Program-made: the position numbers and the translations under genes
NCBI GenBank assembly: GCA_937873225.1
Contig: CALMVN010000080.1
Coordinates: 1-35,779 of the forward strand
DNA length: 35,779 nucleotides
DNA from: an uncultured Acetobacteraceae bacterium
GTDB taxonomy: Bacteria > Pseudomonadota > Alphaproteobacteria > Acetobacterales > Acetobacteraceae
Reading direction: 5' to 3'
Notes under the pieces: generated by a model
Seen by the model: only the letters and a program-made list of their open reading frames with translations
Told to the model about the DNA's origin: nothing
Database searches by the model: none
Shown: in pieces, positions 1 through 19,827 of the stretch
Layout of the letters: each line of letters starts with the position of its first letter
Position numbering within the stretch: the first letter of the stretch is position 1

Positions 1-1998
1 CTGCCGACCCTGGCCTACACGCAGCGCACCATGCTGGCGATCGGCCTGGCGCTCTACGGTGCGTTCTCGCTGCAGCTGCTGTCGCCGATGTCGTCGGTGA
101 CCACGGTGCTGATCGTGGCCAACCCGGTCACCGGCGCGCTGGTGTCGAAAAGCCTGTGGCGGCTGTTCGGCACCGTGCTGGGTGCTGCCAGCGCGGTGTC
201 GCTGTTCGCCGTGTTCGCGCAGTCGCCGATCCTGTTCACCGTGGCGCTCTCGCTGTGCATCGCGCTGGCCTGCGTGGTGTCGACGCTGTTGCGCTATTTC
301 CGGGCCTATGGCGCGGTGCTGGCCGGCTACACCATCATCATCGTCGCCAGCGGCTCGTTCGCCGACCCGCAGAACATCTTCATCGGCGCGCTGTCGCGCG
401 TGTCGTCGGTGTCGGTCGGGCTGGCCGCCACCGCGCTGGTGTTCCTGCTGACCGCCCTGCCGAAACCGTCGCGGCTCGAAGCCGGCATCGAGGTGCTGGT
501 GCGCGACGTCGCCGCCGGGTTCCTGGCCTATCGCGGCCATCGTGCCGGCTGGACCGACACCCTGCCGCGGGCGGAGCTGCTTCGCCGCGCCAACGCGCTG
601 GACGAGCAGATCGTGTACGCCGGCGCCGACAGCACCGCCGTGCGGGCGCGGATGATGCGGCTGCGACGCGGCGCCGCCGGGCTGCTCGGCCTGCTCAGCG
701 CGCTGGAGCCGCTGCACGACCGGCTCCGGCAGGACGATCCCGACGTGGACGCGGCGCGGCGGATCGTGCACGGGATCATGGAGATGCTGGCCGGGCCGAC
801 GCCGGGCGGCCTTGGCGGGACGCTGCCGCGCATCGAGGCGGCGAGGGCGGAGGTGCGGGCGATCGCCCTCCGGACCACCGATCCGGCGGCGCTGACCGTG
901 GTGGTGCACGAGTACGACCTGCTGCAGCAGCTGGCCCAGGCGGTGGGCGACCTGAGCGGACGGGGCACCGGCGGCGCCCGGCTGCGCCTGCTGCCCTATC
1001 TCGACTGGTCGAGCGCCGGGCGCAACGGGCTGCGCGGCGGGCTGGTCACCCTGCTCGGCGGGCTGTTCTGGTACGTGACGCAGTGGCCGTCCGGGCCGAC
1101 TCTGCTGTCCTACCTGATCCCGGCCGCCTGCCTGCTGTCGACCAACCCGTCGGCGTCGCAGGCCAGCCTCAGCTTCGCGACCGGCACGCTGCTGGCGATC
1201 CCGGCCAGCCTGCTGGCGCAGACCTTCCTGCTGCCGCAGATCGACGGCTTCCCGCTGCTGTGGGGCTCGCTGTGCCTGTGCCTGGCGCCTGGGATCTGGC
1301 TGCAGTTCCATCCGCGGCACGGGCTGCGCGCGTTCGGCTACGTGGTGTTCTTCAACGCCATGGTGAACGTCCACAACCCGATCACCTTCGACGACGTGGC
1401 CCTGCTCAACACCTGGGCCGCGTTCGCGGTCGGCGTGGTGTGCCTGGTGCTGGTGTTCCGCGTGCTGCTGCCGGTCAACCCCCGGCGCGAGGTGGCCCGG
1501 CTGGCGGCCTCGCTGGGACGGGCGGTGGAACGACTGGCCCGGCTGCGCGCGTCGCGGCGCCGTGCGGTGTGGGACACCTGGCAGAACCGGCAGATGCAGA
1601 AGATCCTGCGCCTGCTCCAGCGGATGGGGCAGGTGCCGGGCCTGGACCAGGTGGGCCCGGTGCAGCAGGCGTTCGCCGTGGTGGCGCTGGGACGGGTGGT
1701 GCTGACGCTGCAGGCGCTGCGCCGCGAGCCGGCGCTGGGCGGGGCGGGGCATGACGCGGTGGAACGGGCGCTCCGGGCGCTGCGAAGGCTGCGGCGCTCG
1801 CCGGAACGGGCGGCGGCGGCGGTCAAGGCGGCGGCCGATGCGGCGGAACCGCTGCTGCCGGCCTCCGACGCGGCACCCGCCGCGTCGCCGCATCCGCTCC
1901 GGCTGCTGGTCGGCACGCTGGGCGAGGCGGTGGTGCTGATCGCCAAGGCGGGCCCGCTGCTCGACCGGCGGGGCGCGCTGGCCAGGCCGCCATGCTGA
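1..1998 (+). CDS. FUSC-family membrane efflux pump subunit (left end cut by the window)
   Basis: Inner-membrane component of an aromatic-acid or toxic-compound efflux system of the AaeB/FUSC type. The reading frame is already open at base 1 and the first in-window ATG is at 31, so the true start probably lies just upstream. The protein shows two hydrophobic blocks, each with several membrane segments (about residues 1-140 and 335-480 counted from the ATG at 31). Each is followed by a charged, Arg/Ala-rich cytoplasmic stretch, which is the usual duplicated FUSC layout. The length (at least 655 residues) fits the family. It overlaps the DUF1656 gene by 7 bases, so the two are translationally coupled. 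The substrate cannot be read from the sequence; aromatic carboxylates are only the best-known example in the family. Confidence 0.88.
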   Translation: MPTLAYTQRTMLAIGLALYGAFSLQLLSPMSSVTTVLIVANPVTGALVSKSLWRLFGTVLGAASAVSLFAVFAQSPILFTVALSLCIALACVVSTLLRYFRAYGAVLAGYTIIIVASGSFADPQNIFIGALSRVSSVSVGLAATALVFLLTALPKPSRLEAGIEVLVRDVAAGFLAYRGHRAGWTDTLPRAELLRRANALDEQIVYAGADSTAVRARMMRLRRGAAGLLGLLSALEPLHDRLRQDDPDVDAARRIVHGIMEMLAGPTPGGLGGTLPRIEAARAEVRAIALRTTDPAALTVVVHEYDLLQQLAQAVGDLSGRGTGGARLRLLPYLDWSSAGRNGLRGGLVTLLGGLFWYVTQWPSGPTLLSYLIPAACLLSTNPSASQASLSFATGTLLAIPASLLAQTFLLPQIDGFPLLWGSLCLCLAPGIWLQFHPRHGLRAFGYVVFFNAMVNVHNPITFDDVALLNTWAAFAVGVVCLVLVFRVLLPVNPRREVARLAASLGRAVERLARLRASRRRAVWDTWQNRQMQKILRLLQRMGQVPGLDQVGPVQQAFAVVALGRVVLTLQALRREPALGGAGHDAVERALRALRRLRRSPERAAAAVKAAADAAEPLLPASDAAPAASPHPLRLLVGTLGEAVVLIAKAGPLLDRRGALARPPC

Positions 1999-2186: not shown

Positions 2187-2228
2187 GCGAGGCGCATCCG
2201 CACGCCTGATCCCGGCCTGTCCGGAAGG

Positions 2229-2303: not shown

Positions 2304-2330
2304 CTGATACCAGCGGCGGCGGGGTTCCAC

Positions 2331-2430
2331 CTGCACAGGCCAGGGCTCTGCCCTGGACCCGCCAAAGAAACAGTCGCCCTTTTGGAACCCGATTTAAAGG
2401 CTGACGGGGTCTGGGGCCTCCGGCCCAAGC
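2331..2430. repeat. Palindromic intergenic repeat element
   Basis: The stretch contains CCAGGGC-TCT-GCCCTGG, a perfect 7-bp stem with a 3-base loop at 2340-2356. It is followed by a 'GACCCGCCAAAG...CCCTTTTGGAACCCGATT' type segment (quoted in part) in which AAAG and CTTT can pair, and then by GGGGCC-TC-CGGCCC-like sequence near 2411-2426. From memory, elements built on 'CAGGGCTCTGCCCTG...ACCCGCCAAAGG...CCCTTTGG' are dispersed between genes in Acetobacteraceae and relatives. Only one copy is visible in this window, so its repetitive nature is inferred. Confidence 0.5.
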
Positions 2431-2714
2431 GGATCGAGCTGCGAGGCAGATCGATGGGGGGGCGCCCTGCGGCTTGCTTGCCTACCGGTCAAACCCTGGC
2501 GCCGCTGGCATGAGCTGACGGGCGCCCGGTCCGCCGCATCCGGCCGGAATCGCGACGTGGTCGGGTCCGACAGGCCGGACCACGGCTCGTCCGGCCGGCT
2601 GGAGCGGCCGATGGCGCATCAAGGCCCGGTCGTCTAAGTAGCCGCGGCCTGGGGCCAGCGGCCCCGACCGGTCCGGGGACGCCCCGGCCGTGCGTTCCGG
2701 TGTTGGGGCTCCTG

Positions 2715-3623: not shown

Positions 3624-3633
3624 CCCGCTGCCG

Positions 3634-5133
3634 ATGACGCGCACCGCGACCCGCCGGCTGGCCGCGTGCCTGGCGGCGCTGCTGCTGGACGGCTGCACCG
3701 TCGGCCCGCACTACCATCCGCCGCACATGGCAGGCGTGCCGGCGAACTGGACCGAACACACGGCGACCCCGGACGAGATCGCCCGCACCGAGGCGCAGAT
3801 GCGCGACTGGTGGGGGGCGTTCCACGACCCGCTGCTGGACACGCTGGTGGCCGACGCGATCGACGGCAACCGGCAGCTGGCGCAGGCGGGGCAGCGGCTG
3901 CTGGCGGCGCGCGCTCTGCGCGACCAGATCAGGGGGCAGCTCTACCCGCAGATCGACCTGACGCCCGCCGCCGGGATCCAGCGCTTCAGCACCACGCTGG
4001 AGTTCCCGCCACTGCCGGGCGCCGACTCCGACAACCGGCTGTGGCAGTACGGCGGCACCGTGTCCTGGCAGCTCGACGTGTTCGGCCGGCTGCGCCATTC
4101 GGTGGAAGCGCAGCAGGCGGCGCTGGACGCCGGGATCGAGCAGCGGCGCGGCCTGCTGCTGACGATCCTGTCCGAGCTCGCCGGCGACTACGTGACCCTG
4201 CGCGCGGCCCAGCTGCAGCTCGGGATCGCCGACCGCAACATCCACGCGGCGGCGGAGTCGCTGCAGCTGAGCCGGAAGATCTACACGCAAGGCCTCGGCA
4301 CCACGCTGCAGGTGGCGCAGGCGCAGGCGGAGCTGGAAACCGAGCAGGCGACCCGGCCGCCGCTCGAAACCCAGGTGGCCCAGCTGGCGCACGCGATCGC
4401 GGTGCTGACCGGGCGGATGCCGGGCGCGCTGGAGGCACGGCTGACCGAGCCTGCGCCGTTGCCCGACATCCCGCCGCTGCCGGTGACGCTGCCCTCGATG
4501 GTGATCGCCAACCGCCCCGACATCCGCCAGGCCGAGCGGCAATATGCGCAGGCGACGGCGCGGATCGGCGTCGCGGTGGCGCAGCTCTACCCGAGCTTCA
4601 CCCTGCCGCTGTCCTTCACCCCGCAGGCCAGCATGATCCACGAGCTGTTCACCGCCAGCAGCCTGGCCTGGTCGCTGCTGCTCGAGGCCAGCATCCCGGT
4701 GTGGCACGGCGGCAGCCTGTCGGCGCAGGTGCGCGAAGCGCGCGCACAGGCGGAGGAAGCGCGGCTCGGCTACGAGCAGGCGGTGCTGGGAGGCTTCCGC
4801 GAGGTCGAGGACCGGCTGGTGGCCTACCGCAACGACCAGATCCGCACCGAAACCCTGCGCCGCGCGGCCGCGGACGACGCGCTGGCGCTGGACCGCGCGC
4901 GCCGGCTGTACGGGGCCGGGCTGAGCGGCTTCCTCGACGTGCTGACCAGCGAGCGGGCGACCTACGCGGCGCAGAACCTCGAGGCGCTGGGCGAGCTGTC
5001 GCGGCTCGACGACGCGATCGGGCTGTTCACCGCACTCGGCGCCGGCTGGCAGGGGGTGGCGCTGACCGACACCACGCTGCCGGTTGACGCGGCGTCGCAG
5101 CACCGGATGGCGGAGGCAGCCGCGGGACGATAA
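3634..5133 (+). CDS. NodT-family outer-membrane efflux lipoprotein
   Basis: TolC-like outer-membrane channel of a tripartite efflux pump, 499 residues, the normal length. The N-terminus is a lipoprotein signal peptide with lipobox LLDGC, placing the acylated cysteine at residue 21, followed by the family's TVGPxYxxP motif. Two OEP repeats follow (about residues 55-245 and 270-475), with the typical SWQLDVFGRLR, RPDIRQAERQYAQATARIGVA and FLDVLTSERATYAAQ motifs. It lies 10 bases after the adaptor gene and ends the + strand set. The next gene converges on it. Confidence 0.9.
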   Translation: MTRTATRRLAACLAALLLDGCTVGPHYHPPHMAGVPANWTEHTATPDEIARTEAQMRDWWGAFHDPLLDTLVADAIDGNRQLAQAGQRLLAARALRDQIRGQLYPQIDLTPAAGIQRFSTTLEFPPLPGADSDNRLWQYGGTVSWQLDVFGRLRHSVEAQQAALDAGIEQRRGLLLTILSELAGDYVTLRAAQLQLGIADRNIHAAAESLQLSRKIYTQGLGTTLQVAQAQAELETEQATRPPLETQVAQLAHAIAVLTGRMPGALEARLTEPAPLPDIPPLPVTLPSMVIANRPDIRQAERQYAQATARIGVAVAQLYPSFTLPLSFTPQASMIHELFTASSLAWSLLLEASIPVWHGGSLSAQVREARAQAEEARLGYEQAVLGGFREVEDRLVAYRNDQIRTETLRRAAADDALALDRARRLYGAGLSGFLDVLTSERATYAAQNLEALGELSRLDDAIGLFTALGAGWQGVALTDTTLPVDAASQHRMAEAAAGR

Positions 5134-5259
5134 GCGGCCGCATGCCGGCAATGGTCCAAGGCACGGGCAGGATCCCATTCAAGTTGAACGCCGTTCACGA
5201 ACCTCGACCGCGTCGGCAGCCATCAAGCCGATGCGGCGCGTGCGCGAAGCGGAAGCGCG

Positions 5260-5285
5260 GCCCGGCCAGGCGAGGCTTGCCGGGC
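5260..5285. terminator. Possible bidirectional hairpin between convergent genes
   Basis: GCCCGGC (5260-5266) and GCCGGGC (5279-5285) form a 7-bp stem with a 12-base loop in the 223-base space between the outer-membrane lipoprotein gene and the sugar permease gene, which converge. There is no T-run, so it is at best a weak terminator. Confidence 0.25.
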
Positions 5286-5356
5286 GTGCGGAGACGGCGG
5301 CCAGCGACGGCAGCCGATCCGAGGCGCCATCGTCGGCGCGACGGATCGGGCGAGGG

Positions 5357-6355
5357 TCAGGGCGCCACCCGGGTCGGTTTCGGCGTCGACGCGGCGCGGA
5401 GCGAGCGAAGCGACGGGATCGCCCTGCGGACGACCGGCTGGTCCGCGAGGACGCCGATCAGGATCACCGTACCCATGACGGCGAAGTTGAGCGAGCTCGG
5501 GATGCCCAGGATGTTGACCAGGTTCTGCAGCACCTGGAGCAGGGCGGTGCCGAGCACGATGCCGATGATCGAGCCCTCGCCGCCGCGCAGGCTGCAGCCG
5601 CCGAGCACGGCGGCGGCGATGGCGTAGAGCTCGTAGAAGTTGCCGAACGACGAGGGCGAGACGGAGTCGGTGTAGAACACCAGGCAGATGGTGGCGAGGC
5701 CGGCCAGGCCGCCGCTGATGACGTAGGCGCCGGTGACGATGGCGCCGGTGCGTATGCCGGAAAACCGCGCCGCCTCCTCGTTGCGGCCGATCGCGAACAG
5801 GTAGCGGCCGAACACGGAGCGGTGCAGCAGCACGCCCATGACCACGGCGACCAGGACCAGCAGGATGAACGGGTGCGGGATGCCCCAGCTGCGGCCAGAG
5901 GCGAGCCAGCCGAGCCAGTCGAAGTCGTCGGTGTAGCCGAACCCCATGGTGGCGTCGGTGGTGTAGTAGCGCGCCGCACCCCGGTAGATCAGCAGGCCGC
6001 ACAGGGTGACGACGAAGGGCTGGAGCTTCGCCCTGGTCACCAGCAGCCCCTGCAGCGCGCCGAGCACGATGCCGCCCGCCACGATGGCGAGGATGGCCAG
6101 CGGCCACGGCATGCCGCGGTTGACCAGCAGGTCGATGAACACGACGCCGAGCAGCGAGAACATCGAGCCGACCGACAGGTCGATGCCGCCGGTGATGACC
6201 ACCAGGCCCTCGCCGATCGAGAAGATGCCGAACAGGCCGATCAGGTTGGCCATGTCGAGCAGGTTGACCGCCGACAGGAAGCGCGGGTTGAGGATCGCGG
6301 TGATGATCCCCACCACGATCAGGAGGAGCAGGAGTCCCCAATCCTTTCGGGCCAT
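5357..6355 (-). CDS. Sugar ABC transporter permease (RbsC/BPD_transp_2 type)
   Basis: Inner-membrane channel subunit of a ribose/xylose-type sugar importer, 332 residues, with about nine hydrophobic segments. The family signature GGIDLSVGSMFSL follows the third hydrophobic block, and the SGGLAGLA and LGTALLQVLQNLVNILG motifs of RbsC-like permeases are present. The start codon ATG (6353-6355) overlaps the TGA stop of the ATPase gene; a GTG one codon upstream (6358) is also possible. This coupling is normal for the family. The sugar cannot be told from the permease. The C-terminal tail (RSLRAASTPKPTRVAP) is basic and cytoplasmic. Confidence 0.92.
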   Translation of the reverse strand: MARKDWGLLLLLIVVGIITAILNPRFLSAVNLLDMANLIGLFGIFSIGEGLVVITGGIDLSVGSMFSLLGVVFIDLLVNRGMPWPLAILAIVAGGIVLGALQGLLVTRAKLQPFVVTLCGLLIYRGAARYYTTDATMGFGYTDDFDWLGWLASGRSWGIPHPFILLVLVAVVMGVLLHRSVFGRYLFAIGRNEEAARFSGIRTGAIVTGAYVISGGLAGLATICLVFYTDSVSPSSFGNFYELYAIAAAVLGGCSLRGGEGSIIGIVLGTALLQVLQNLVNILGIPSSLNFAVMGTVILIGVLADQPVVRRAIPSLRSLRAASTPKPTRVAP

Positions 6356-7878
6356 CACGCGGACTCCAGGTGCTCGGCCGGCTGGCCGATGGCGAGACGC
6401 AGGACGTTGAGCTCGGAGAAGTCGGCGCGGTCGAGCACGCCGCTGATCTCGCCCTCGTGCATCACGGCGACGCGGTCGGACACGCCGATCACCTCCTCCA
6501 TGTCGCTCGAGATCATGACGATGGCGACGCCGTCATCGGCGAGGGCGCGCATCAGCGCGTAGATCTCGCCCTTGGCGCCGACGTCGATGCCGCGCGTGGG
6601 CTCGTCGAAGATGATCAGGCGCGGCGCCATCGACAGCCACTTGGCGAGCACCACCTTCTGCTGGTTGCCGCCCGACAGGGTCGCGGCATGCACGGCGACG
6701 CTGGGCGTCTTGATCCTGAGCGAGGCCTGCTGGGCGCGCGCCGTGGCCTGCTCGGCGTCGCGGTCGACCAGGGCGAAGCGGGCATGGCGGCGCAGGCTGG
6801 CGAGCGAGATGTTCTCCGACAACGGCATGTCGAGCACGAGGCCTTCGCGCTTGCGGTCCTCCGGCACCAGGTAGATCCCCTGCGCGATGGCCTGCCGGGG
6901 AGACCGGACCTCCACCCGCTCGCCGGCCAGGCGCACCTCGCCTCCCAGGACCGGGTCGACCCCGAACAGGGCGCGGGCGAGCGAGGTGCGGCCGGAGCCG
7001 ACCAGCCCGGCGAGGCCCAGGATCTCGCCGCGTCGGACGCCGAGCGAGACGTGGCGACCGGGAAAGGCGCTGGTGACGAGGCGGTCGACGACGCACAGCT
7101 CGCCGCCGGGCGGCGTGCGCGGCGGGGTGTACAGGGAGCGCAGCTCGCGGCCGATCATCAGGCGGATCATCGCGTGGTGCTCGATCTCGTCGTGCCCGAG
7201 CTCGCCGGCGACGCGGCCGTCGCGCAGGCAGACCACGCGGTCGGCGCACTGCTTCACCTCGTGCAGGCGATGGCTGATGTAGATCACCGCCACGCCGGAC
7301 GCGCGCAGCTCGGCGATCACCTGCAGCAGGCGGTCGGTTTCCTGCAGCGTCAGGCTGGAGGTGGGCTCGTCCATGATGATGACGCGGGCGTCGACCGACA
7401 GCGCCCTGGCGATCTCGACCAGCTGGCGCTGGGCGATCAGCAGACGCGACACGCTGGTCTCCGGCCCGAAATCGGCGCCGAGACGCTGGAGCAGCGGACG
7501 CGCCCGGTCATGCATGCGCTTGGTGCGGACCAGCCGGAGCGGACCGCCCGCGACCGCCTCGCGGCCGAGGAAGATGTTGGCCGCGACGTCGAGGTTGTCG
7601 AGGACGGTCAGCTCCTGGTGCACGAAGGCGATGCCGGCGCGGGCGGCCTCCGCCACGGTCATGGTGTCGTGGGCGACCCCGCCCACGACGATGCTGCCGG
7701 CATCCGGCTGCACCACGCCGCCGAGGATCTTCATCAGCGTCGACTTGCCGGCGCCGTTCTCGCCGATGAGGCCCAGGACGGTGCCGGCCTCGACGGACAG
7801 GCTGACCTCCTCCAGGGCCCTCACGCCGGCATAGGACTTGCTGATCCCGAGGAGGGACAGCAGCGGCGGGGACGACAT
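6355..7878 (-). CDS. Sugar ABC transporter ATP-binding protein (RbsA/MglA type)
   Basis: Cytoplasmic energy subunit of the sugar importer, 507 residues, made of two fused ABC domains. The first has Walker A GENGAGKST (residues 39-47), Q-loop FVHQELTV, a degenerate signature (VSRLLIAQRQ) and Walker B VIIMDEPTSSLT. The second has a shortened Walker A (GLVGSGRTSLAR), signature LSGGNQQKV and Walker B LIIFDEPTRGIDVG. A changed P-loop in the second half is normal for RbsA/MglA/XylG proteins. It sits 7 bases after the binding-protein gene and overlaps the permease gene, so the three form an operon. Confidence 0.94.
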   Translation of the reverse strand: MSSPPLLSLLGISKSYAGVRALEEVSLSVEAGTVLGLIGENGAGKSTLMKILGGVVQPDAGSIVVGGVAHDTMTVAEAARAGIAFVHQELTVLDNLDVAANIFLGREAVAGGPLRLVRTKRMHDRARPLLQRLGADFGPETSVSRLLIAQRQLVEIARALSVDARVIIMDEPTSSLTLQETDRLLQVIAELRASGVAVIYISHRLHEVKQCADRVVCLRDGRVAGELGHDEIEHHAMIRLMIGRELRSLYTPPRTPPGGELCVVDRLVTSAFPGRHVSLGVRRGEILGLAGLVGSGRTSLARALFGVDPVLGGEVRLAGERVEVRSPRQAIAQGIYLVPEDRKREGLVLDMPLSENISLASLRRHARFALVDRDAEQATARAQQASLRIKTPSVAVHAATLSGGNQQKVVLAKWLSMAPRLIIFDEPTRGIDVGAKGEIYALMRALADDGVAIVMISSDMEEVIGVSDRVAVMHEGEISGVLDRADFSELNVLRLAIGQPAEHLESA

Positions 7879-7885
7879 CCTTCCG

Positions 7886-8839
7886 CTACTTGGCGCTCAG
7901 CATCCGGCGCATGCTCTGCTGGAAGTCGTGCACGTTGTCCTTCTGGATGATGCGGGTGGGGATGATGATGAGGTGGTTGGCGGGGATGAACGACTTGTCG
8001 CCGTTGATGTACTTCACCAGGTCGGTCATCGACTGGTAGCCGAACTCGAACGGCTGCTGGACGATGGTCGACTGGATGGTGCCGTCGGCGACGCCGCGCA
8101 GGGTCTGCGCGTCCTCGTCGAAGCCCACCACCTTGATCTTGCCGGACATGCCGGCATCCTTCACCGCGGAATAGATCTGCGGCGTGTTGTAGTTGTACAG
8201 CCCGACCAGGAGGTCGAGGCCGCCCTTGGCGAGCGCGTCCTGCACGTTGGCCTTCGCCTTGGCGAAGTCGCCGCCGTCGGTGCGGATGTCGACGATCTGG
8301 ACGTTGGAGCCCTTCAGCCCTTCCCTGATCCCCTCGACGCGCTCGCGCGCGTTGTCGGCGTCCATGGTGCCGACGAAGGCCATCATCTTGCCGCCCTGGG
8401 GCAGCGCCTTCCTGATCTCGCTCGCGGCCTGAAGGCCGGCCGCCTTGTTGTCGGTGCCGATGTAGAGAACGCGGTTGGAGTTCGGCGCATCGCTGTCGGT
8501 GGTGAACAGCACGGCGTGGCTGGCGACCTTGTTGAACTCCTCGGTGGAGTTCTTGGGGTCGATGGCGGAGATGGAGATGCCGGCGATGCCCGACGCGAGC
8601 AGGTCGTCGAGCTCGCGACGCTGCTCGGCCGCGGTCGCCTGGCCGGTGACGATGACCTGCATGGCGAAGTCGGGATGCTCGCCCTGGGCCTTCATGACGC
8701 CGGCGCGGGCGACGGTCCAGAAGTCGGCCGAAACGTTGGTGATCAGGGCCAGGGACTTCTTCTGCTGGGCGCCCGCCGGCGCGCCGAACAGTGAAAGGGT
8801 GGCCGCCCCCAGGAGGGTGGCCTGGATCAGTCGACGCAT
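7886..8839 (-). CDS. Periplasmic sugar-binding protein of the ABC importer
   Basis: A 317-residue substrate-binding protein of the ribose-binding, periplasmic-binding-protein-I fold (Peripla_BP_4). It has a signal peptide with cleavage expected after APAGA (about residue 24). The mature part begins with the usual beta-strand KSLALITNVSADFW, followed by DDLLASGIAGISISAIDP and FTTDSDAPNSNRVLYIGTDN, which are the ligand-pocket segments of sugar-binding relatives. The start is supported by GGAGG a few bases upstream of the ATG (read on the - strand). It is the first gene of the three-gene operon. The ligand is not identifiable. Confidence 0.92.
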   Translation of the reverse strand: MRRLIQATLLGAATLSLFGAPAGAQQKKSLALITNVSADFWTVARAGVMKAQGEHPDFAMQVIVTGQATAAEQRRELDDLLASGIAGISISAIDPKNSTEEFNKVASHAVLFTTDSDAPNSNRVLYIGTDNKAAGLQAASEIRKALPQGGKMMAFVGTMDADNARERVEGIREGLKGSNVQIVDIRTDGGDFAKAKANVQDALAKGGLDLLVGLYNYNTPQIYSAVKDAGMSGKIKVVGFDEDAQTLRGVADGTIQSTIVQQPFEFGYQSMTDLVKYINGDKSFIPANHLIIIPTRIIQKDNVHDFQQSMRRMLSAK

Positions 8840-9528
8840 GTGTCCTCCGACTCTTTATTCTTATGTTCGGCACTCTTGGCAGCGCCAGCGCGATGCTAGG
8901 TCATTTCGTAGCTGTATGATAGGTCGGCCGGTGGTTCTGACGCCTTCCGGTCAGAAGGCCCGGTGCGAGCGATGCGCAGGCGGCGCGTGGCCGCGTCGAG
9001 CCGGTCAGGCGGGATGAGTCGAAAGGCGTGGCCGTCCATCGAGGGCCGGATCAGGCTGATCGGTCGCGATACCGGCGATGCGGCGGGCCCCGTCGGCGGG
9101 CGCCGGTGCGGGGCATCAAGTCCGACCTCATCATGTCTGCCGTCCTGTGCGCCTCGGCTCAGGATCCCGTATCCGGCTCGGCACGGCGTGATTCCACGGG
9201 CGTCGGAGAAGTTCGATGTCCGACGCGCATTGCTTCCCCGCGCCCACATGCGTCGGATCGAGCCGTTCTTCCCGTCACCGTGATCCGGCACGCCCTGTGG
9301 AAGGGCGCGCCGCACGGGCGAGCACGCCGTGCCGGTGACTGCCGACTCCGACGGCATGGCCGCGACCGAAGGCCAGTTGGCCGGCGCGCCGTACGCGGCG
9401 AGCAACCTCCCGGCCCGCCGGCGCGACCGGCTCGCCTGGTCCGGCCATGTCGCCGGACGCGCCGTGCGCTTGTTCGTGTGGGAGCGCCGCCACGCGACCG
9501 GGTCGCATGGCGGTGCCGTGGCCGGTCG
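8840..9528. other. Intergenic region with promoter for the sugar importer and an IS remnant
   Basis: About 690 bases without an intact gene. Bases 8840-8925 are comparatively AT-rich (for example around 8855-8870 and 8905-8925) and should carry the promoter of the leftward sugar importer operon, but no clear -35/-10 pair can be named. Bases 9202-9325 hold a decayed IS5-type transposase start. The remainder (8930-9200 and 9326-9528) shows no protein-like frame that I trust. Confidence 0.55.
9202..9325 (+). pseudogene. Decayed N-terminal part of an IS5-family transposase
   Basis: Two in-order pieces of the conserved IS5-type N-terminus can be read. ALLPRAHMRRIEPFFP matches the usual MSDxxxLxxxQMxRIEPFFP start. 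Then, in another frame and after a loss of about 20 codons, VIRHALWKGAPHG matches the usual VIRxGLxWKDAPxxYG. A preceding ATG-TCC-GAC (MSD) is one frame off, so an additional small indel is needed. No DDE catalytic core follows and no terminal inverted repeats were recognised. This is a scar of a former insertion, not a functional element. Confidence 0.55.
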
Positions 9529-11394
9529 TCAGGGGTAGCTGGTGACGGTGACCGGGGTGTCCGGGTTGGCGATGGTCGAGGAGCCGCCGGTGTTGTTGAT
9601 CACGTTCGTGATCCCGCCCGAGGAGGTCGAGCTCAGGAATATCGTGAGCAGGTCGTTCAGGCTCCCCGCCGGCAGGCCGGACGGCACCTCGAAGGCGTTG
9701 GCGGCCAGGATGTTCACCCCGAGGTCGAAGTTGCTGTAGCTGCCCATGCCGTAGCCGTGGAAGCTGCGCACCCCGTCGGCCACCTTGAACGCCGCCCAGC
9801 CGTCCACGCCGGGCGCCTCCATCCAGGCGGCCTGGCTCGGCGGGTCGTACGGCATCTCGTTCTGGAAGAAGATGTCGGTGCCGTTCTGGCCGTTCCAGAT
9901 CACCTCGTACTTCTGGAAGTGCTCTACCGCGAGGCCGTAGGCGGTGACGTTGTTGCCGTTCACCGTCAGGCCGGTATCGGCGGTGTTGCTGGTCCAGCCG
10001 ACGCCGGCGCCGTGGTCGGCGCGCCAGGCCCACACGTTGTCGATCAGCGCGTTGTCGGCATCCACCACCAGGGCGGTTCCGGCGCTGCCGGCTTCGGCGC
10101 CGCCGATGCGGAAGAACACGTCGAACAGCGCGGACGGGTCGTTCGCCGTGTTGCTGCCGAGGGCCGGGTCCACGACGTTGGCGAGCTGCGTGCCGAGCTG
10201 CAGCAGCACCGGCGAGCGCTTCGGCCCGGCATCGACGATGACGCCCTCGACCAGCACGCCGCGCCCGTCGAGCGAGGCCAGGGCGGGCAGGCCGTTCTGC
10301 GGGATCAGCGTCGGCATGCCGAGCCCCAGCACCACCGTGTCGGGCCGGGACACCAGGATGGTCCCCTGGAGGTCGTACACTCCGGGCGTCAGCAGGAGGT
10401 TCCTGCCTTCCAGCAGGGCGAGGCTGATCTGCGCCGCGCTGCTCGCCGGCGTCGCGATGAAGAACTGGCTGAGGGGGATCGACCGGCCGGCGGTCTGGCC
10501 GCTGCCCCAGCTGATGCCGGAACTGTTGCGCTGCACGGACGGCACGAACACGGCAGCACTGCCGGTCGCGTCCGTATACAGGTACGGCGCCTCCCGGGTT
10601 ACCGGGCTCGTGGGCAGCGTGGTGTACGGGCCGCCGCAGGCGCTCTGCGCCGGGAAGCAGTTGGCGGGCGCGCCGGTGACGCCGGAGAACACCTGGTTCC
10701 ACACCCCGTTGGACCAGCCGTCGAGCACGCTGTTGCGCGTCATCCACTGCTGCTGCGAGCCGCTGGTGACGCCGCCGCCGCTGAACCGGGTGTCGGCGAT
10801 GAAGCCGCCGCTCGCGTCGGACGGAGCCGTGCAATAGTCCATCAGCGTCGCGTTGCCGTTCACCTGCACGCGCCGCATGGGTGCGGCCTGCGACACCGCC
10901 CAGAACTCGCCCGTGTAGCATCCGGCGTTGGGGTTGGACACGTTGATGGTCAGGTTCGACAGCGAGCGCCAGAAGTTGTCGAGCGCGTTGCAGGCGCCGC
11001 TGCTGTCGCACTGGTTGTACACGTTGATCGAGCCGTTGATGACCACGTCGCCCGGCGACTGCCCGAGGCCTGCGACGGTGGTGTAGTAGCCGACCTGGAA
11101 GTTCAGCGGCGTGGCGCTGGAGCCGTACGTGCCCGGCTCGAACAGCAGGGCGTAACGCTGCGTGCCGAACTGGTTGGACACCTGCTGGTTGGCGATCGCG
11201 TTCACCGTGGCCTGGATCTGGCTCACGGACATGGCGGGCGTGAAGACGACGACGTTCGGCCCCAGGTTCGGCAGGGCCGCGGCCCGGGCGGCTCCTCCGG
11301 CGCCCGCTGCTGCGGACATCAGGAGAACCAACCCGAGCGTCAGGCCGTACAGGACCCGACCGGCAACGGTCTTGGAAAGTCGACAAGGCTGCAT
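9529..11394 (-). CDS. Secreted beta-helix-like protein (often mislabelled 'adenylyl cyclase' or 'coagulation factor 5/8 type')
   Basis: A 621-residue exported protein. The first ~40 residues are a long signal peptide ending in AARAAAL. The mature part begins LGPNVVVFTPAMSVSQIQAT and has the layout of pectate-lyase-like parallel beta-helix proteins: repeated short Asn/Gly/Val-rich strands such as RNLLLTPGVYDLQGTILV, DTVVLGLGMPTLIPQNG and LVVDADNALIDNVWAWRADHG. It is full length and ends in VTVTSYP. The same order of motifs (FEPGTYG, VGYYTTVAGLG, FWRSLSNLTI, RNSVLDGWSNGVWNQVFSGV, MPYDPP) is familiar to me from a secreted family common in Streptomyces. Enzyme activity is not established; a polysaccharide-active role is only a guess from the fold. 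The start has GGGGA about 8 bases upstream. Confidence 0.8.
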   Translation of the reverse strand: MQPCRLSKTVAGRVLYGLTLGLVLLMSAAAGAGGAARAAALPNLGPNVVVFTPAMSVSQIQATVNAIANQQVSNQFGTQRYALLFEPGTYGSSATPLNFQVGYYTTVAGLGQSPGDVVINGSINVYNQCDSSGACNALDNFWRSLSNLTINVSNPNAGCYTGEFWAVSQAAPMRRVQVNGNATLMDYCTAPSDASGGFIADTRFSGGGVTSGSQQQWMTRNSVLDGWSNGVWNQVFSGVTGAPANCFPAQSACGGPYTTLPTSPVTREAPYLYTDATGSAAVFVPSVQRNSSGISWGSGQTAGRSIPLSQFFIATPASSAAQISLALLEGRNLLLTPGVYDLQGTILVSRPDTVVLGLGMPTLIPQNGLPALASLDGRGVLVEGVIVDAGPKRSPVLLQLGTQLANVVDPALGSNTANDPSALFDVFFRIGGAEAGSAGTALVVDADNALIDNVWAWRADHGAGVGWTSNTADTGLTVNGNNVTAYGLAVEHFQKYEVIWNGQNGTDIFFQNEMPYDPPSQAAWMEAPGVDGWAAFKVADGVRSFHGYGMGSYSNFDLGVNILAANAFEVPSGLPAGSLNDLLTIFLSSTSSGGITNVINNTGGSSTIANPDTPVTVTSYP

Positions 11395-11428
11395 GATGCG
11401 TTTCCCCAGGCGGACCGGCTTTTCGCGT

Positions 11429-11448
11429 GGGCAGCCAGACGGCTGCCC
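11429..11448. other. Perfect 8-bp hairpin between efflux operon and beta-helix gene
   Basis: GGGCAGCC (11429-11436), loop AGAC, GGCTGCCC (11441-11448) form a perfect stem. Reading leftward, it lies after the stop of the outer-membrane gene (11605) and 35 bases upstream of the beta-helix gene start. There is no T-run on that strand, so it could be a terminator of the efflux operon or a leader hairpin. The rest of the 210-base gap shows nothing definite. Confidence 0.3.
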
Positions 11449-11604
11449 CGCGCCGTTCGTTTTGCATCGAGCCGGCCGGCGGCGACCGGCGCGATGCGGC
11501 CGGCAGGTTCGGCGATCGCAGCCCGGTTGGCAAGGGCCCTGACAAGGGCTGCAAACTCCGCGGCGACGCGTGCGCGGCCGCCCGGGCGGCGCGTTGCGAG
11601 AACG

Positions 11605-13047
11605 TCAGTTCCGGTCCGCGATCTCCCAGCCGCCGCCCAGCGCGCGGTAGAGCGCCACCAGGTCGGTCTCGATCTGCGTGTCGCTGTTGGCCAGCGTGCT
11701 CCGGTTCTGCAGCAGCGCGTTCTGCGCCGCCAGCACGTTGAGGAAGTCGACCGCCCCCTGCCGGTAGCGCTGGCGCGACGCGTCCAGGGCCACCCGGCTC
11801 TGTTCCACCGCGTCTGCGACGCTGTCGCGCCGGTGCTGCGCTTCCACATAGGCGGTGAGCGCGTTGTCGACGTCCTGCCAGGCCTGCAGCACCGTGCTGC
11901 GATAGGTGATCGCCGCCTCCCGCTGCTGCGACCGGCGCAGGTGCAGCGTCGCGCGCAGCCGGCCGCCCTCGAAGATCGGCACGTCCACCGTGGGCCCGAC
12001 CATGTAGTAGCCGGAGGACAGGTTGAACACCTGCGGGAACTGCAGCGCCTGGGTGCCGATCTGCCCGGTCAGCCGGATGTCGGGATAGAAGTCGGCCACC
12101 GCCACGCCGGTCTCCGCGGTCGCCGCGTGCAGCCGCGCTTCCGCCTCGCGCACGTCCGGCCGCCGCCGCGCCAGCTCCGCCGGCAGCCCGATCGGCACCA
12201 CCGGCGGCACCGGCGGCTGCCCCGCCGGCCCGAGCTCGCCGTGCAGCGCGCCCGGCGGCTCGCCGAGAAGATAGCCCATCGCGTTGACCAGGCTCGCTTC
12301 CGTTGCCCGCAGCGGCGGCAGGTTGGCGGCGATGGTCGCCCGTTGCGCCTCAGCGTTGGCGATGTCGAGCGTGGTGGCGGTGCCCTGGGCGAACTGGTCG
12401 CGCACCAGCTGGACGTTGCGGTCGGCGTCGGCGAGGCTTTCAACCGTGATCGCCTCGGTCGCCTGCGTGCCGCGCAGCTGCATGTAGTCCTGCGCCAGGT
12501 CGGAGATCGCCATCAGGGCGATGGCGTGCCGGGCCTCGATCGCCGCTTCCGTGTTCGCCCGCTGCGCCTCGACCGCACGCCGCACCCGGCCGAACAGGTC
12601 GATCTCCCAAGACGAGGACAGGTCGTTCTCGTAGAAGTCGAAGGAGGTGGGTGCGCCGGGTGCCGGAACCACCAGCGCCGTCAGCAGCGGCGGCGCCGTG
12701 CGCACCCGGTTGTACAGGCTGTTCGCGTCCAGCGTCGGCAGGCCCTGCGAGGCGGCGATGCGCCGCTGCGCGCGGCCCTGGCTGACCCGTTCCGCGGCCG
12801 CCTGCAGGTCGAGGTTCTGCCGCGCCAGCCGCTCCACCAGCGACGACAGCTCCGGGTCGCCGAACCGGGTCCACCAGGCGGCGTCCACGGTGCCGCCGAA
12901 GGTGGGCCGGCTGCCGACCGCGTCCGGCGCCGGCCGCCACCAGCGATTCGGGGAATAACCCTCCGGCCGGTGGAAGTCCGGCCCGACGGTGCATCCGGCG
13001 AGAACCGCCAGCATGGCGGCGGCCAGGACTGTCCGAGGCGTCCTCAT
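11605..13047 (-). CDS. NodT-family outer-membrane efflux lipoprotein (second system)
   Basis: TolC-like outer-membrane channel, 480 residues, last gene of the EmrAB-type operon. The signal peptide ends in lipobox VLAGC with the cysteine at residue 19, then the TVGPDFHRP motif. Two OEP repeats are visible, with SSWEIDLFGRVRRAVEAQ in the first and RRPDVREAEARLHAATAETGVA and AVDFLNVLAAQNALLQ in the second. The reading frame stays open far upstream, but the ATG at 13045-13047 gives a proper lipoprotein signal and follows the adaptor stop by only 2 bases. It is related to, but clearly different from, the copy at 3634-5133. Confidence 0.9.
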   Translation of the reverse strand: MRTPRTVLAAAMLAVLAGCTVGPDFHRPEGYSPNRWWRPAPDAVGSRPTFGGTVDAAWWTRFGDPELSSLVERLARQNLDLQAAAERVSQGRAQRRIAASQGLPTLDANSLYNRVRTAPPLLTALVVPAPGAPTSFDFYENDLSSSWEIDLFGRVRRAVEAQRANTEAAIEARHAIALMAISDLAQDYMQLRGTQATEAITVESLADADRNVQLVRDQFAQGTATTLDIANAEAQRATIAANLPPLRATEASLVNAMGYLLGEPPGALHGELGPAGQPPVPPVVPIGLPAELARRRPDVREAEARLHAATAETGVAVADFYPDIRLTGQIGTQALQFPQVFNLSSGYYMVGPTVDVPIFEGGRLRATLHLRRSQQREAAITYRSTVLQAWQDVDNALTAYVEAQHRRDSVADAVEQSRVALDASRQRYRQGAVDFLNVLAAQNALLQNRSTLANSDTQIETDLVALYRALGGGWEIADRN

Positions 13048-13049
13048 CC

Positions 13050-14240
13050 TCAGCGCGCGGTCAGCCGCTGCGGCGTCGCGCTCTGCCGGCCCTTCACGTC
13101 GGCCTGCCCGGTGTGGATGGTGATCTCCACCGAGAAGCCGATCCGCAGCAGCTCGGCCTCGTTCTGCCCCGGCGAGACCAGGATCTTGACCGGCAGGCGC
13201 TGCACGATCTTGGTGAAGTTGCCGGTGGCGTTGTTGGGCTGGATCGGGGCGAACGCCGCTCCCGAGGCCGGCGGGATGCTGTCGACCACGCCGTCGAGGT
13301 CGAGGTTGTACGCGTCCAGGTGGATGCGCGCGTGCTGCCCGGGCAGCACGTGCCTGAGCGCCACCTCGCGGTAGTTGGCGACGATGTACACCCGGTTGAG
13401 CGGCACCAGCGCCATCAGCGCGGCACCCGGCCCCACGAAGTTGCCGACCTGCACCTCCCGTTCCGCCACGGTGCCGTCCAGCGGGGCCAGGATGCGGGTA
13501 TAGGACAGGTTCAGCCTTGCCTGCTCCACCTGCGCCCGGTCCGACCGGATGGTGCCCAGCGCCGCCTGGTACTGCGCCTGCAGGATCGGCAGCTGGTGCC
13601 GGGTCGAGCTGACCTGCGCCTGCGCGCCGTCGACCGAGGCCTGCGCCTGTCGCAGCGACATGTCGGCCTGCTGGCGCTCCTGGAACGAGCCGGCGCCGGT
13701 CGCGGACAGGTTGCGGTAGCGGGCGGCGTTCTGCTGCGCGAACAGCAGCTGCGCGTTGGAGGAGGCGACGTTGGCCTGCGACTGGGCGATCTGCGACGGC
13801 AGGCGGTCGATCTGCGCCTTGATGTCGTCGGCCTGCGCCTGGTCGCGCGCCAGCATCGCCTGGTCGGTGGCCAGCGTGGTGCGGTAGTCGCGGTCGTCCA
13901 GCGTGGCCAGCACCTGTCCCGCCCGCACCGTCTGGTTGTCGTCCACGTCCACGCTCGCGACCTGGCCCGAGATGCGCGGCGCGATCGTCGCGTAGTGCGC
14001 GGTGACGTAGGCGTCGTCGGTCCACACCGAGTCCGACGGCGCATAGATGATCACCAGCACGACGGCGACGAACCCGACCACGAGCACGCCCACCAGCAGC
14101 CACGGCCAGAGCGGGCGGCGCTTCTTGTCGTTCTTGTCCGGCGCCTCGTCCTTGCCCGGCTTGTCCTCCTTCTTGTCCTTGTCCTTCTCCTCGCCCTTGC
14201 TGGCATCCCCGTCCGGGGAATCGTCCTTCTCGTCGGCCAC
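13050..14240 (-). CDS. EmrA-like HlyD-family adaptor
   Basis: Periplasmic membrane-fusion subunit of an MFS-type drug efflux pump, 396 residues. The cytoplasmic N-terminus is unusually charged, an Asp/Glu/Lys-rich run of about 40 residues (KGEEKDKDKKEDKPGKDEAP), followed by a membrane anchor (about 44-67). Next come the first lipoyl half (DAYVTAHYATIAPRISGQVASVDVDDNQ, quoted in part), a long helical hairpin rich in Gln and Ala (about 115-230), the second lipoyl half (YTRILAPLDGTVAEREVQVG) and a beta-barrel part (VYIVANYREVALRHVLPGQH). It sits between the MFS gene (9 bases) and the channel gene (2 bases). Confidence 0.92.
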   Translation of the reverse strand: MADEKDDSPDGDASKGEEKDKDKKEDKPGKDEAPDKNDKKRRPLWPWLLVGVLVVGFVAVVLVIIYAPSDSVWTDDAYVTAHYATIAPRISGQVASVDVDDNQTVRAGQVLATLDDRDYRTTLATDQAMLARDQAQADDIKAQIDRLPSQIAQSQANVASSNAQLLFAQQNAARYRNLSATGAGSFQERQQADMSLRQAQASVDGAQAQVSSTRHQLPILQAQYQAALGTIRSDRAQVEQARLNLSYTRILAPLDGTVAEREVQVGNFVGPGAALMALVPLNRVYIVANYREVALRHVLPGQHARIHLDAYNLDLDGVVDSIPPASGAAFAPIQPNNATGNFTKIVQRLPVKILVSPGQNEAELLRIGFSVEITIHTGQADVKGRQSATPQRLTAR

Positions 14241-14249
14241 CGCCCGCTC

Positions 14250-15800
14250 CTACGTCTTGGCCAGCGCGATGCGCGGTGGATAGGTGCGTTCCGGCAGCAG
14301 GGCCAGAACGATCATCAGGAACACGACGAGCGCCCCGAACACCACGAAGGTGTCGCTCAGGGTCAGCACCGTCGACTGGATCTGCACGTCGGCCAGGAAC
14401 GCGTCCAGGGCCCCGGGCGCCCGCGGCTGGCCGTTGGGCAGCAGCGGCGGCGGGTTGCCGGGGATCAGTGCCGGCCCGGCCACCACGCGGAACCCGCCCT
14501 GTCCGGACTGGTCCACGATCCGGTCGGTGTGCAGCCCGCCGCGCCAGCGCATGATCAGCGCCAGCAGCCAGGTCCCCACCGGCTCGGCCAGGCCGCGGCA
14601 GGTGTTGATCAGCGCCGAGGCCAGCGGCCCTTCCTCCGGCTTCTTGATGGTGTTGGTCGACATCATCAGCAGCGGCAGCACGATCATCGGCTCGCCCACC
14701 GCCTGCAGCCCCTGCCAGATCAGGAACCCGCCGCCCTGGATCACGCTGGTCAGGAACACGTTGCCGACGCAGGCGACCAGCACGCAGGCCATGCCGGCGA
14801 AGCTGACCAGCCGCGCGTCGACGTGCTCGAAGTTCAGCAGCACGGCGATCAGCGGCAGCAGCACCAGCTGCGACGCCGCGATCACCAGCGTGACCGCATA
14901 GGCCTGCAGCGGCCGGAACCCCTGGATGTCGCTGAGAAAGGCGATCGGGATGGTCGAGGCCGACTGGCCCACCAGCAGGAACGTGAACAGGGTGATCAGC
15001 CCGTAGGCGAGGTTGCGCCGCTTCAGCAGGGCGAACCCGAACAACGGCGACGCGACCCGGAACTCGTTGACCACGAACAGCGGCAGCACCACGACGCTGA
15101 CCAGCGCCAGCACGCAGATGGTCTTCGAGTTGAACCAGTCGTAGCGGTCGCCCTGCTCCAGCATGGTGATGAACGCGCTGAAGCCGACCGCGCCCAGCAG
15201 CGCGCCGGACCAGTCGAACATCGGCAGCCGCTCGTATTTCGGCGGGTCCTGGTCCACGCCGTACCACACCAGCACCCCGGCCAGCGCGCACAGCGGCAGG
15301 GTCTCGAAGAACACGAACTGCCAGGCCACCACGTCGGTCCACAGCGCTGCCAGCGTGGTCGACATGTTCGGCCCGAACGTCGCGGTCAGGGCATACAGCG
15401 CCAGCCCGTACAGCCGGATCGGCGGCCCGAGCACGCGCAGGCCCACGATCAGCAGGCACGGGATGATCAGCCCGCCGGAGAAGCCCTGCACGAAGCGCTG
15501 CATGTAGAGCAGCGTCAGGTTGGTGGTGAACGGGATGAACACGGTCGAGACGCAGCACAGCGTGATCGCGAACAGCACCCAGCGTCGCACCGTCATCGTC
15601 ACCGCCCACCAGGGCGACAGCGACATGCCGATGACCTGGCCGGTGGCGTACAGGCTGGTCAGCCAGGTGCCCTGGTCGAGGTCGATCCCCAGGCCGCCGC
15701 GTATGTCCGGCAGCGCGGCCGCCGATACGCCGTCGTTGAACTCCGCCGTCAGGGCGGCGATGACCACGCCGAGCAACCCGAGAAGTGGCCTGATCTCCAT
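14250..15800 (-). CDS. DHA2-family MFS efflux transporter (EmrB-like)
   Basis: Inner-membrane proton-driven drug exporter, 516 residues, with about 14 hydrophobic segments as in the DHA2/EmrB family. The first helix carries FNDGVSAAALPDIRGGLG, followed by WLTSLYATGQVIGMSLSPWW, the usual family opening. A long loop near residues 435-475 (GPALIPGNPPPLLPNGQPRA) precedes the final helix, as in other EmrB-like pumps. The ATG at 15798-15800 is the first that gives a normal N-terminus; the frame is open further upstream. It is the first gene of the three-gene operon and is divergent from nagA (144 bases apart), so their promoters share that gap. Confidence 0.92.
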   Translation of the reverse strand: MEIRPLLGLLGVVIAALTAEFNDGVSAAALPDIRGGLGIDLDQGTWLTSLYATGQVIGMSLSPWWAVTMTVRRWVLFAITLCCVSTVFIPFTTNLTLLYMQRFVQGFSGGLIIPCLLIVGLRVLGPPIRLYGLALYALTATFGPNMSTTLAALWTDVVAWQFVFFETLPLCALAGVLVWYGVDQDPPKYERLPMFDWSGALLGAVGFSAFITMLEQGDRYDWFNSKTICVLALVSVVVLPLFVVNEFRVASPLFGFALLKRRNLAYGLITLFTFLLVGQSASTIPIAFLSDIQGFRPLQAYAVTLVIAASQLVLLPLIAVLLNFEHVDARLVSFAGMACVLVACVGNVFLTSVIQGGGFLIWQGLQAVGEPMIVLPLLMMSTNTIKKPEEGPLASALINTCRGLAEPVGTWLLALIMRWRGGLHTDRIVDQSGQGGFRVVAGPALIPGNPPPLLPNGQPRAPGALDAFLADVQIQSTVLTLSDTFVVFGALVVFLMIVLALLPERTYPPRIALAKT

Positions 15801-15944
15801 GCACGGTTCCCGCCCGCCTGCGTCGCGTCGTCCAGCGGGATGCGGGCGCGACCCGCGCCGCCCGAAAGGCGACACGGACATGACCCCGTCTCCTAGACCG
15901 GGAGCGGCGCCGTTGCCTAGCGCACCGCGCGCTGGGCCGGCCGC

Positions 15945-17051
15945 ATGACCCGGCTCGCCGGCCACCTGGTGCTGCCGGACCGGGTGTTGCCGGGCACCAT
16001 CGGCTTCGGTGCCACCATCGCGGAGATCGCCCCGTCCACCGCGGTGCCGGACCGCTACGTGCTGCCGGGCTTCGTCGACGTGCACGTGCACGGCGGCGGC
16101 GGCGGCGACGTGATCGACGGGCCGGCCGGGATCGGGACCCTGGCCCGGTTCCACCTCGGGCACGGCACCACCACCCTGCTGCCCACCACCATCACCCGCC
16201 CCTGGCCCGAGGTGATGGACATGCTGCGCGCGGTGGCGGAGCTGCGCCGGGCGGGCCTGCCGGACGGCCCGCAGGTCGCCGGCGCGCACCTGGAAGGCCC
16301 GTTCCTCAGCCCCCACCGCCTCGGCGCGCAGCCGCCGTTCGCGATCCCGCCCACGCCGGCGCTGCTGCGGGAGGCGCTGGCGCTGGACGTGGTGCGCGTG
16401 GCCACCCTGGCGCCGGAGATCGAGGGCGCCGACGACGCGATCGACCTTTTCGCGCGCGCCGGCGTGCGGACCAGCCTCGGCCACAGCAACGCCGGCTTCG
16501 ACGTCACCGTGCGGGCCCTGGCACGGATCGCCGCCGCCGGCGGCGTGGCCGGCGCCACCCACCTGTTCAACGCGATGGACGGCCTCGCCGCGCGGGCGCC
16601 GGGAATGGTGGGCGCGATCCTCCGCGACCGCGCCGCCCACGCCGAGCTGATCCTCGACACCCACCACGTGCATCCGGCGTCGTTCGCCCTGGCCCGCGAC
16701 CTGCTCGGCGACCGCCTCCTGCTGGTCACCGACGCGATCCGCGCCGCGGGCCTCGGCGACGGGCCGAGCACGCTCGGCGGCCGGCCGGTCGCCATCCGGG
16801 ACGGCGTCGCCCGCCTCCCCGACGGCACGCTGGCCGGCAGCGTGCTGACCATGGACGCCGCCCTGCGCCACGCCCTCGACGCCGGCACGACCCTGCCGCA
16901 GGCGGCGCGGCTGGCGGCCACCAACGCCTGCGCCTATCTCGGCCTGCGCGACCGCGGCCGCCTGGCACTAGGCCTACGCGCGGACTTCGTGGTGCTCGAC
17001 CCGGCGATGCAGCCGGTCGAGGTCTGGATCGGCGGCCAGCAGGTGACGTGA
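15945..17051 (+). CDS. nagA: N-acetylglucosamine-6-phosphate deacetylase
   Basis: Cytoplasmic amidohydrolase that removes acetate from GlcNAc-6-phosphate, giving glucosamine-6-phosphate for amino-sugar breakdown or peptidoglycan recycling. The 368-residue length is normal. Metal-site and active-site motifs are in place: HVH at residues 47-49 (PGFVDVHVHGGGG), Glu117 in HLEGPF, His180 in LGHSNA, His206 in THLFNAM, catalytic Asp263 in VTDAIRAAG, and the closing TNACAYLGL and GxLxxGLRADFVVLD motifs. No nagB, nagK, PTS or regulator gene lies beside it in the window. It is divergent from the MFS operon and converges on the esterase gene with a 10-base gap. Confidence 0.93.
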   Translation: MTRLAGHLVLPDRVLPGTIGFGATIAEIAPSTAVPDRYVLPGFVDVHVHGGGGGDVIDGPAGIGTLARFHLGHGTTTLLPTTITRPWPEVMDMLRAVAELRRAGLPDGPQVAGAHLEGPFLSPHRLGAQPPFAIPPTPALLREALALDVVRVATLAPEIEGADDAIDLFARAGVRTSLGHSNAGFDVTVRALARIAAAGGVAGATHLFNAMDGLAARAPGMVGAILRDRAAHAELILDTHHVHPASFALARDLLGDRLLLVTDAIRAAGLGDGPSTLGGRPVAIRDGVARLPDGTLAGSVLTMDAALRHALDAGTTLPQAARLAATNACAYLGLRDRGRLALGLRADFVVLDPAMQPVEVWIGGQQVT

Positions 17052-17061
17052 CGGCCGCTGG

Positions 17062-18378: not shown

Positions 18379-18401
18379 CGCCGGCCCGTCCCGCGTCTGA
18401 T

Positions 18402-18421
18402 CCGGCCGGCCCCGCGGCCGG
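18402..18421 (-). terminator. GC-rich hairpin after the SDR gene
   Basis: CCGGCCG (18402-18408) pairs with CGGCCGG (18415-18421) over a 6-base loop, directly after the stop of the SDR gene (18428) on the - strand and before the esterase start. No T-run follows, so this is only a possible weak terminator. Confidence 0.25.
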
Positions 18422-18427
18422 GTCCCG

Positions 18428-19780: not shown

Positions 19781-19827
19781 GGCCTGATCGTCCTGGTTCG
19801 AGGCGGCGGTATCGACGCGCGTCGGCG

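Follow-up and report, generated by a model that had tools for sequence, protein, structure and literature searches.

A gene in an uncultured Acetobacteraceae bacterium very probably encodes an exported, inverting and exo-acting beta-1,3-glucanase of glycoside hydrolase family 55 (GH55) and seems to have reached its host by horizontal transfer from another phylum, an Acidobacteriaceae-like soil bacterium being the most likely donor. The gene lies in a window of 35,779 nucleotides (the whole stretch of DNA analysed; contig CALMVN010000080.1 of assembly GCA_937873225.1), and its product is a further member of the already known GH55 family, gained by transfer. The gene and its predicted signal are placed as follows.

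9529..11394, minus strand: GH55 gene; open reading frame with an ATG start, 621 amino acids, exo-beta-1,3-glucanase-like on the basis of phmmer, residue mapping and the predicted model
11275..11394, minus strand: predicted N-terminal secretion signal, about residues 1-40; a basic start, a hydrophobic stretch and A-R-A-A before LPNLGPNV, read from the sequence

Family assignment and predicted fold

The first-pass annotation had described a secreted-looking beta-helix protein of 621 residues and had suggested polysaccharide cleavage. Both points agree with our results: an N-terminal signal can be read from the sequence, the predicted model is a beta-helix, and the best matches in sequence and structure are to GH55. 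In a phmmer search of PDB sequences, residues 41-621 of the window protein matched 4PEW (E 1.1e-144), named by a Foldseek structure search as SacteLam55A from Streptomyces sp. SirexAA-E, with 268 of 545 aligned residues identical. A 32-row profile extends to the fungal enzyme 3EQN (E 2.8e-11). The AlphaFold2 model, computed from a 32-row alignment, has a pLDDT of 85.7 and a pTM of 0.88, with pLDDT below 50 at residues 1-38, and shows the two beta-helical domains, rib-cage arrangement and interface active site that characterise the GH55 fold. When the model was searched with Foldseek, SacteLam55A ranked first (3e-49), followed by three fungal GH55 structures. Aligned to 4PEX with VIA-align, model residues 41-621 gave Z 57.3 and an rmsd of 1.3 A over 545 residues; Z was 26.0-26.8 against fungal GH55 enzymes and 13.1-14.7 against pectate and pectin lyases and polygalacturonases, for which 229-244 residues, mostly in the C-terminal half, were aligned. 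On these matches, the comparison of folds that the first-pass annotation had proposed, among GH55, GH28 and the pectate lyases, favours GH55.

Family, fold and residue conservation were computed directly from the window protein. Sequence and model together show a bacterial GH55 protein, most likely with exo-beta-1,3-glucanase activity; by analogy with characterised relatives, it would be exported, act from the chain end and invert the anomeric configuration. Searches of the window protein against Pfam and NCBIfam assigned no family, and weak azurin matches (E 0.022 and above) were dismissed as chance. The fungal enzymes PcLam55A (3EQN), CtLam55 (5M5Z) and MnLam55A (8JHH) likewise have two beta-helix domains and, according to an excerpt of PMC10637969, share the catalytic arrangement seen in the window protein, but they are only 16-21% identical to it and their chains are longer (734-755 residues).

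Active-site residues

The earlier statement that catalytic residues and substrate are both unknown does not stand. SacteLam55A (PDB 4PEW, 4PEX, 4PEY and others), which resembles the window protein over its whole length in fold and is 49% identical over 545 residues, has been solved in complex with substrate, and apart from Thr149 each of its catalytic residues is found again in the window protein. The residue roles used here come from an excerpt of PMC10637969. In the alignment to 4PEW, the general acid Glu502 corresponds to E513 and the assisting Tyr505 to Y516; the E502A variant chain has Ala in the column where 4PEW has Glu, the one matching E513. Three of the four proton-relay residues are kept (Gln174 as Q169, Ser198 as S195, Glu480 as E491), as are Trp446 (W457), Asp449 (D460) and His481 (H492) in subsite -1, and Phe152 (F141), Trp444 (W455) and again Trp446 in the aromatic block. 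Numbering was checked at 16 cited SacteLam55A positions, 14 of which bear the paper's letter in 4PEW; the other two are swapped, 'Phe-143, Trp-144' in the excerpt being Trp and Phe in the 4PEW chain, and the structural-alignment range of 61..605 backs the numbering.

A homologue search gave 65 matches besides the gene's own copy, representing 64 genes (L080 is the same gene as L066). The main alignment has 56 rows: 40 in the clade of the window protein (itself included), 11 of Streptomyces type and 5 from Bacillota; 10 rows of incomplete length were excluded from the first tree and from the counts. Altogether, 10 of 11 catalytic, subsite -1 and aromatic-block positions are kept in the window protein, and these ten columns are invariant across the 56 rows, apart from gaps in row L037 at two of them.

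The window protein departs from SacteLam55A at Thr149, Gln150, Trp196 and Tyr194, replaced by L138, D139, D193 and P191; it also has four conserved cysteines and some short inserts with no counterpart in SacteLam55A. Thr149 is a proposed residue of both the proton relay and subsite -1, and its replacement by Leu counts against a full relay. The equivalent residue in MnLam55A is Glu (PMC10637969, excerpt), so GH55 enzymes are not uniform at this position. At the +2 aromatic, position 193, every row of the alignment has an aromatic residue (39 of 40 in the clade, 16 of 16 outside it) except the window protein, whose Asp occurs in none of the 55 other rows. This change at the +2 platform, unique in the alignment, and a long end branch (0.55 versus a median of 0.19) would suit a protein that is catalytically impaired or binding-only and has been decaying since its transfer. 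We regard such decay as very unlikely, as against it the single copy of the gene in the host genome has an intact reading frame with no stops, the general acid is kept along with most residues of the relay and the subsites, and GC3 fits the host (GC per codon position is 0.60/0.52/0.95, resembling true neighbouring genes).

A possible GH55 subgroup with four cysteines

All 40 clade rows have cysteines C129, C135, C159 and C188, which none of the 11 Streptomyces-type or 5 Bacillota rows shares; Leu at 138 is found in 37 of the 40 and in one Bacillota row. Among rows added later, a Deinococcus protein (L130) has all four cysteines; those of Eleftheria (L132), G938 (L117) and G1124 (L118) do not, and L118 differs further by Met at 193 and by Phe at 195, the relay serine position. 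The four cysteines are predicted to form disulfides, probably two. We suggest tentatively that these proteins could be a distinct GH55 subgroup, with the cysteines arranged round the subsite -1/-2 loop and Thr149 lost, that has spread by transfer among Chloroflexota, Acidobacteriota, Dormibacterota, Actinomycetota, Deinococcota and Pseudomonadota. Its members would carry out catalysis without that relay residue, and their minus-side pocket, and hence their substrate, would be unlike those of SacteLam55A. No assay of the four-cysteine subgroup was found in the literature searched by title and abstract opening.

The remodelled loop might even open room past subsite -1, such that the window protein cuts branched or mixed glucans or some other beta-glucoside, and not plain laminarin from its end. 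Pointing this way are two extra conserved cysteines in the loop, the substitutions of Thr149 and Gln150, the changed -2-filling residues, and the clade-wide occurrence of L138 and the four cysteines. In SacteLam55A the -2 space is occupied by residues 143, 144 and 150, and the GH55 family also includes endo enzymes and a hesperidin rhamnosyl-glucosidase (both from the excerpt of PMC10637969). The aromatic block, the general acid and the remainder of subsite -1 are nevertheless unchanged, although the same excerpt has a fungal endo enzyme that also keeps the block, and position 149 is variable in GH55 anyway. We consider a shifted specificity unlikely, and an exo-acting beta-1,3-glucanase is the reading we prefer.

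Misleading names on homologues

In a plasmid collection, 18 records match the window protein. Labels on these homologues, which come from Deinococcus, Streptomyces, Eleftheria and Novosphingobium, include 'adenylyl cyclase', 'coagulation factor 5/8 type domain-containing protein', 'discoidin domain-containing protein', 'peptidase inhibitor family I36 protein' and 'glycoside hydrolase family 55 protein'; the first two are odd names that the first-pass annotation had given correctly. With E-values of 6e-88 or better, the labelled proteins match 82-93% of the query and are 39-55% identical to the window protein. A more distant relative (31% identity over 80% of the query) is on a plasmid of Candidatus Bandiella woodruffii, recorded from the ciliate Euplotes.

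The 'discoidin' protein of D. gobiensis (736 amino acids) has a true extra F5/8 C domain ahead of its GH55 part, whereas the 'coagulation factor 5/8' protein of S. fungicidicus, like one Streptomyces 'adenylyl cyclase' (597 amino acids each), has no Pfam or NCBIfam match; the 'coagulation factor 5/8' name has therefore probably spread from relatives fused to the domain. The fused gene, on plasmid P1 of Deinococcus gobiensis, has a LacI regulator on one side and a convergent ribose-type ABC operon on the other. No support for the 'adenylyl cyclase' label was found among the homologues checked; the Deinococcus protein so named has a sub-threshold, pectate-lyase-like Pfam match (23.6 bits versus a cut-off of 27). 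Of four homologues checked, three resemble the window protein in having no Pfam or NCBIfam match on the GH55 part, and the fourth has that sub-threshold match only; the missing family may be why wrong names persist.

A mosaic locus

The surroundings of the GH55 gene comprise the following features.

About 9150-9317, plus strand: IS5-family scar; left end and first transposase codons with an internal deletion, recognised by matches to own-genome elements
5357..8839, minus strand: monosaccharide-type sugar ABC operon (solute-binding protein 7886-8839, double ATPase 6355-7878, permease 5357-6358), neighbour of the GH55 gene
8840..8924, minus strand: region upstream of the ABC operon, the final stretch alike in congener G001; similarity stops at 8924 (8900 in G002)
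11605..16871, minus strand: efflux operon (OEP 11605-13050, HlyD 13050-14240, MFS permease inside ORF 14250-16871), upstream of the GH55 gene and a neighbour only

The gene had been described as standing alone between an efflux operon and an IS5-type remnant some 200 bases away. Both are indeed at its sides, the scar boundary lying about 210 bases past the GH55 stop codon, but the efflux operon is on the same strand, and so is the sugar ABC operon, which starts 689 bases downstream with the scar in between. The scar resembles elements elsewhere in the own genome: that on contig C170, in whose reading frame PF13340 scores above its cut-off, is 76% alike over 126 columns (E 9e-23) and 83% alike in a second block of 41 columns, and contig C262 matches at 76% over 124 columns. 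The scar's transposase runs into a stop codon after 11 codons, and its ORFs gave no Pfam match. The rest or right end of the element was not found, the next best C170 match within window positions 4901-20000 having an E of 0.017. IS5-type elements are numerous and partly decayed in this genome, which has 21 PF13340 matches, 15 of them over the cut-off and several with stops. The scar is evidence that insertion sequences have been active here, but not of how the gene was gained.

The ABC operon is retained in two congeners, with 88.6% similarity to G001 over window positions 5392-8924 and 85.6% to G002 over 5406-8900; the match to G020, a third member of the family, is 73.9% and reaches 8783. 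No close copy of the operon's binding protein was found in congeners G003 and G004, and the best match of the operon in the plasmid collection is from Pseudoroseomonas cervicalis (74%). The empty-site comparison consists of the two genomes G001 and G002, both without the window's upstream side: ahead of the operon, as read from sequence, G001 has nitroreductase-like and symporter-like ORFs and G002 CoA-transferase-like and SDR-like ORFs. Congeners also retain the stretch running from about 19.8 kb to metH, which in G001 is some 360 kb away from the ABC operon, and the long matches of the efflux operon (66-74% alike) lie elsewhere in those genomes. Given that these three parts match different places in the congeners, the window is a mosaic, and the GH55 gene is inside its variable part. 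No promoter-like site was found near the GH55 gene, and a single terminator-like site was at chance level.

Elsewhere in the window, a second efflux set (31-5133, plus strand: FUSC-type permease, HlyD, OEP) places the ABC operon and the GH55 gene between two efflux operons. A NagA-like amidohydrolase (15945-17051, plus strand; TIGR00221 score 216.5 versus a cut-off of 225.65) adjoins a putative esterase (17062-18378). A Hint_2 domain protein (PF13403) is encoded at 23597-25312 on the minus strand, and beyond it are an ABC exporter (29504-31858), an HlyD protein (31862-33298) and a Sel1-repeat protein (33381-35183).

Probable origin by horizontal transfer

Acquisition by transfer, as first suggested, is well supported: the GH55 gene was found in none of the four congeners, including the two that keep the ABC operon up to the point where similarity ends. 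It is also rare in wider draws of genomes, which overlap. Matches were found in 2 of 60 genomes in a first draw (the own genome and one weak match, E 8e-4), 4 of 397 in the family draw (among the 396 others, one strong match, G098 at 51%, and two weak), 2 of 385 in the class draw (none strong among the 384 others) and 4 of 398 in the phylum draw (three strong among the 397 others, one of the same class, part-length only).

In a careful tree, the window protein joins three Acidobacteriaceae (support 97/93), with a fourth outside (93/94), within a mainly Chloroflexota clade, and a 100/100 branch parts its 40-row clade from the Streptomyces-type rows. In a quick tree with the added rows, built without L131 (Novosphingobium) and L119 (a part match), the join with Acidobacteriaceae has a support of 94 and no star. 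The first-pass annotation had proposed a homologue tree and expected a Streptomyces or other actinobacterial source. That source now appears doubtful, although a grouping of the window protein with the six Actinomycetota rows of its own clade, chosen after seeing the tree, is not rejected by the AU test (p 0.25). As regards a proteobacterial placement, a single clade of the window protein with the betaproteobacterium Ideonella and G098, the three Pseudomonadota rows of the tree, is rejected (p 0.0012), and the window protein with Ideonella is not (p 0.48). Because the AU tests leave the Ideonella and Actinomycetota groupings standing, the donor phylum is likely yet not fixed; an Acidobacteriaceae-like soil bacterium of another phylum is the most likely donor. 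A purely actinobacterial origin was not adopted, the nearest rows in the tree being Acidobacteriaceae.

The gene could instead be ancestral in the family and lost from most members, an explanation for which one may cite the relative in one other genome of the same family (G098), a part match in the same-class genome G1032, the Novosphingobium plasmid match (39%) and the standing pair of window protein and Ideonella. We hold this highly improbable, given that the G098 protein is without the four cysteines and sits outside the clade, that the joint clade with it is rejected, and that the gene is absent in all four congeners. Under the preferred transfer, the GC3 of the gene, 0.949, is host-like and not Acidobacteriaceae-like (0.67-0.76 in the four homologues), so the transfer is old, or at least not very recent, or the donor was another, GC-rich one. 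Transfer of the GH55 family has a precedent, since it moved from fungi into mycoparasitic oomycetes according to an excerpt of PMC7720654.

Functional context and proposed mechanism

Shared neighbours were compared across 36 relative loci and the window, some with short flanks. A gene of the GH3 cluster occurs at 9 of the 36 and one of the solute-binding-protein cluster at 8, with Pfam finding GH3 in three of three and SBP_bac_5 in two of two members tested, a picture that fits glucan use. The GH3 context is seen in Chloroflexota and Dormibacterota loci, and there is no GH3 neighbour in the window. At L057, L017, L023 and other loci of these phyla, the GH3 gene lies directly upstream of the GH55 gene, and at L057 and L017 a solute-binding-protein gene lies ahead of the GH3 gene. 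Such GH3-GH55 loci are likely beta-1,3-glucan utilisation loci. The own genome has three GH3 matches over the cut-off, on two contigs, and one secretin over the GspD cut-off, so further sugar breakdown and export beyond the periplasm are possible.

The GH55 gene may be functionally linked to the sugar ABC operon. An ABC ATPase of the window's broad similarity cluster is present at 13 of the 36 relative loci, although such ATPases are generally alike, and the D. gobiensis and S. fungicidicus homologues adjoin ribose-type and other sugar ABC genes. Against the link, G001 and G002 keep the operon without a GH55 gene and with other genes upstream, and in the window the two are separated by 689 bases, scar included. 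For lichens, an excerpt of PMC11542873 describes GH55 as more frequent in Acidobacteriaceae and ascribes many monosaccharide transporters to Acetobacteraceae.

In the mechanism we propose, the two beta-helical domains would meet to form a cleft, and the aromatic block of F141, W455 and W457 would enclose the chain's non-reducing end in subsite -1. With Y516 orienting it, E513 would protonate the leaving glycosidic oxygen, while a water molecule activated by E491, Q169 and S195 would attack the anomeric carbon, setting glucose free from beta-1,3-glucan (laminarin, or fungal or algal glucan). The gene would have landed in a rearranged region adjoining the IS5 scar, and the freed glucose may serve the cell.

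An unknown secreted protein and its oddly named homologues thus become a testable glucan-degrading enzyme. For the family, a subgroup without Thr149 would be a direct test case for the need of the proposed four-residue GH55 proton relay. For the host, the gene suggests that use of fungal or algal glucan was gained via transfer between phyla.
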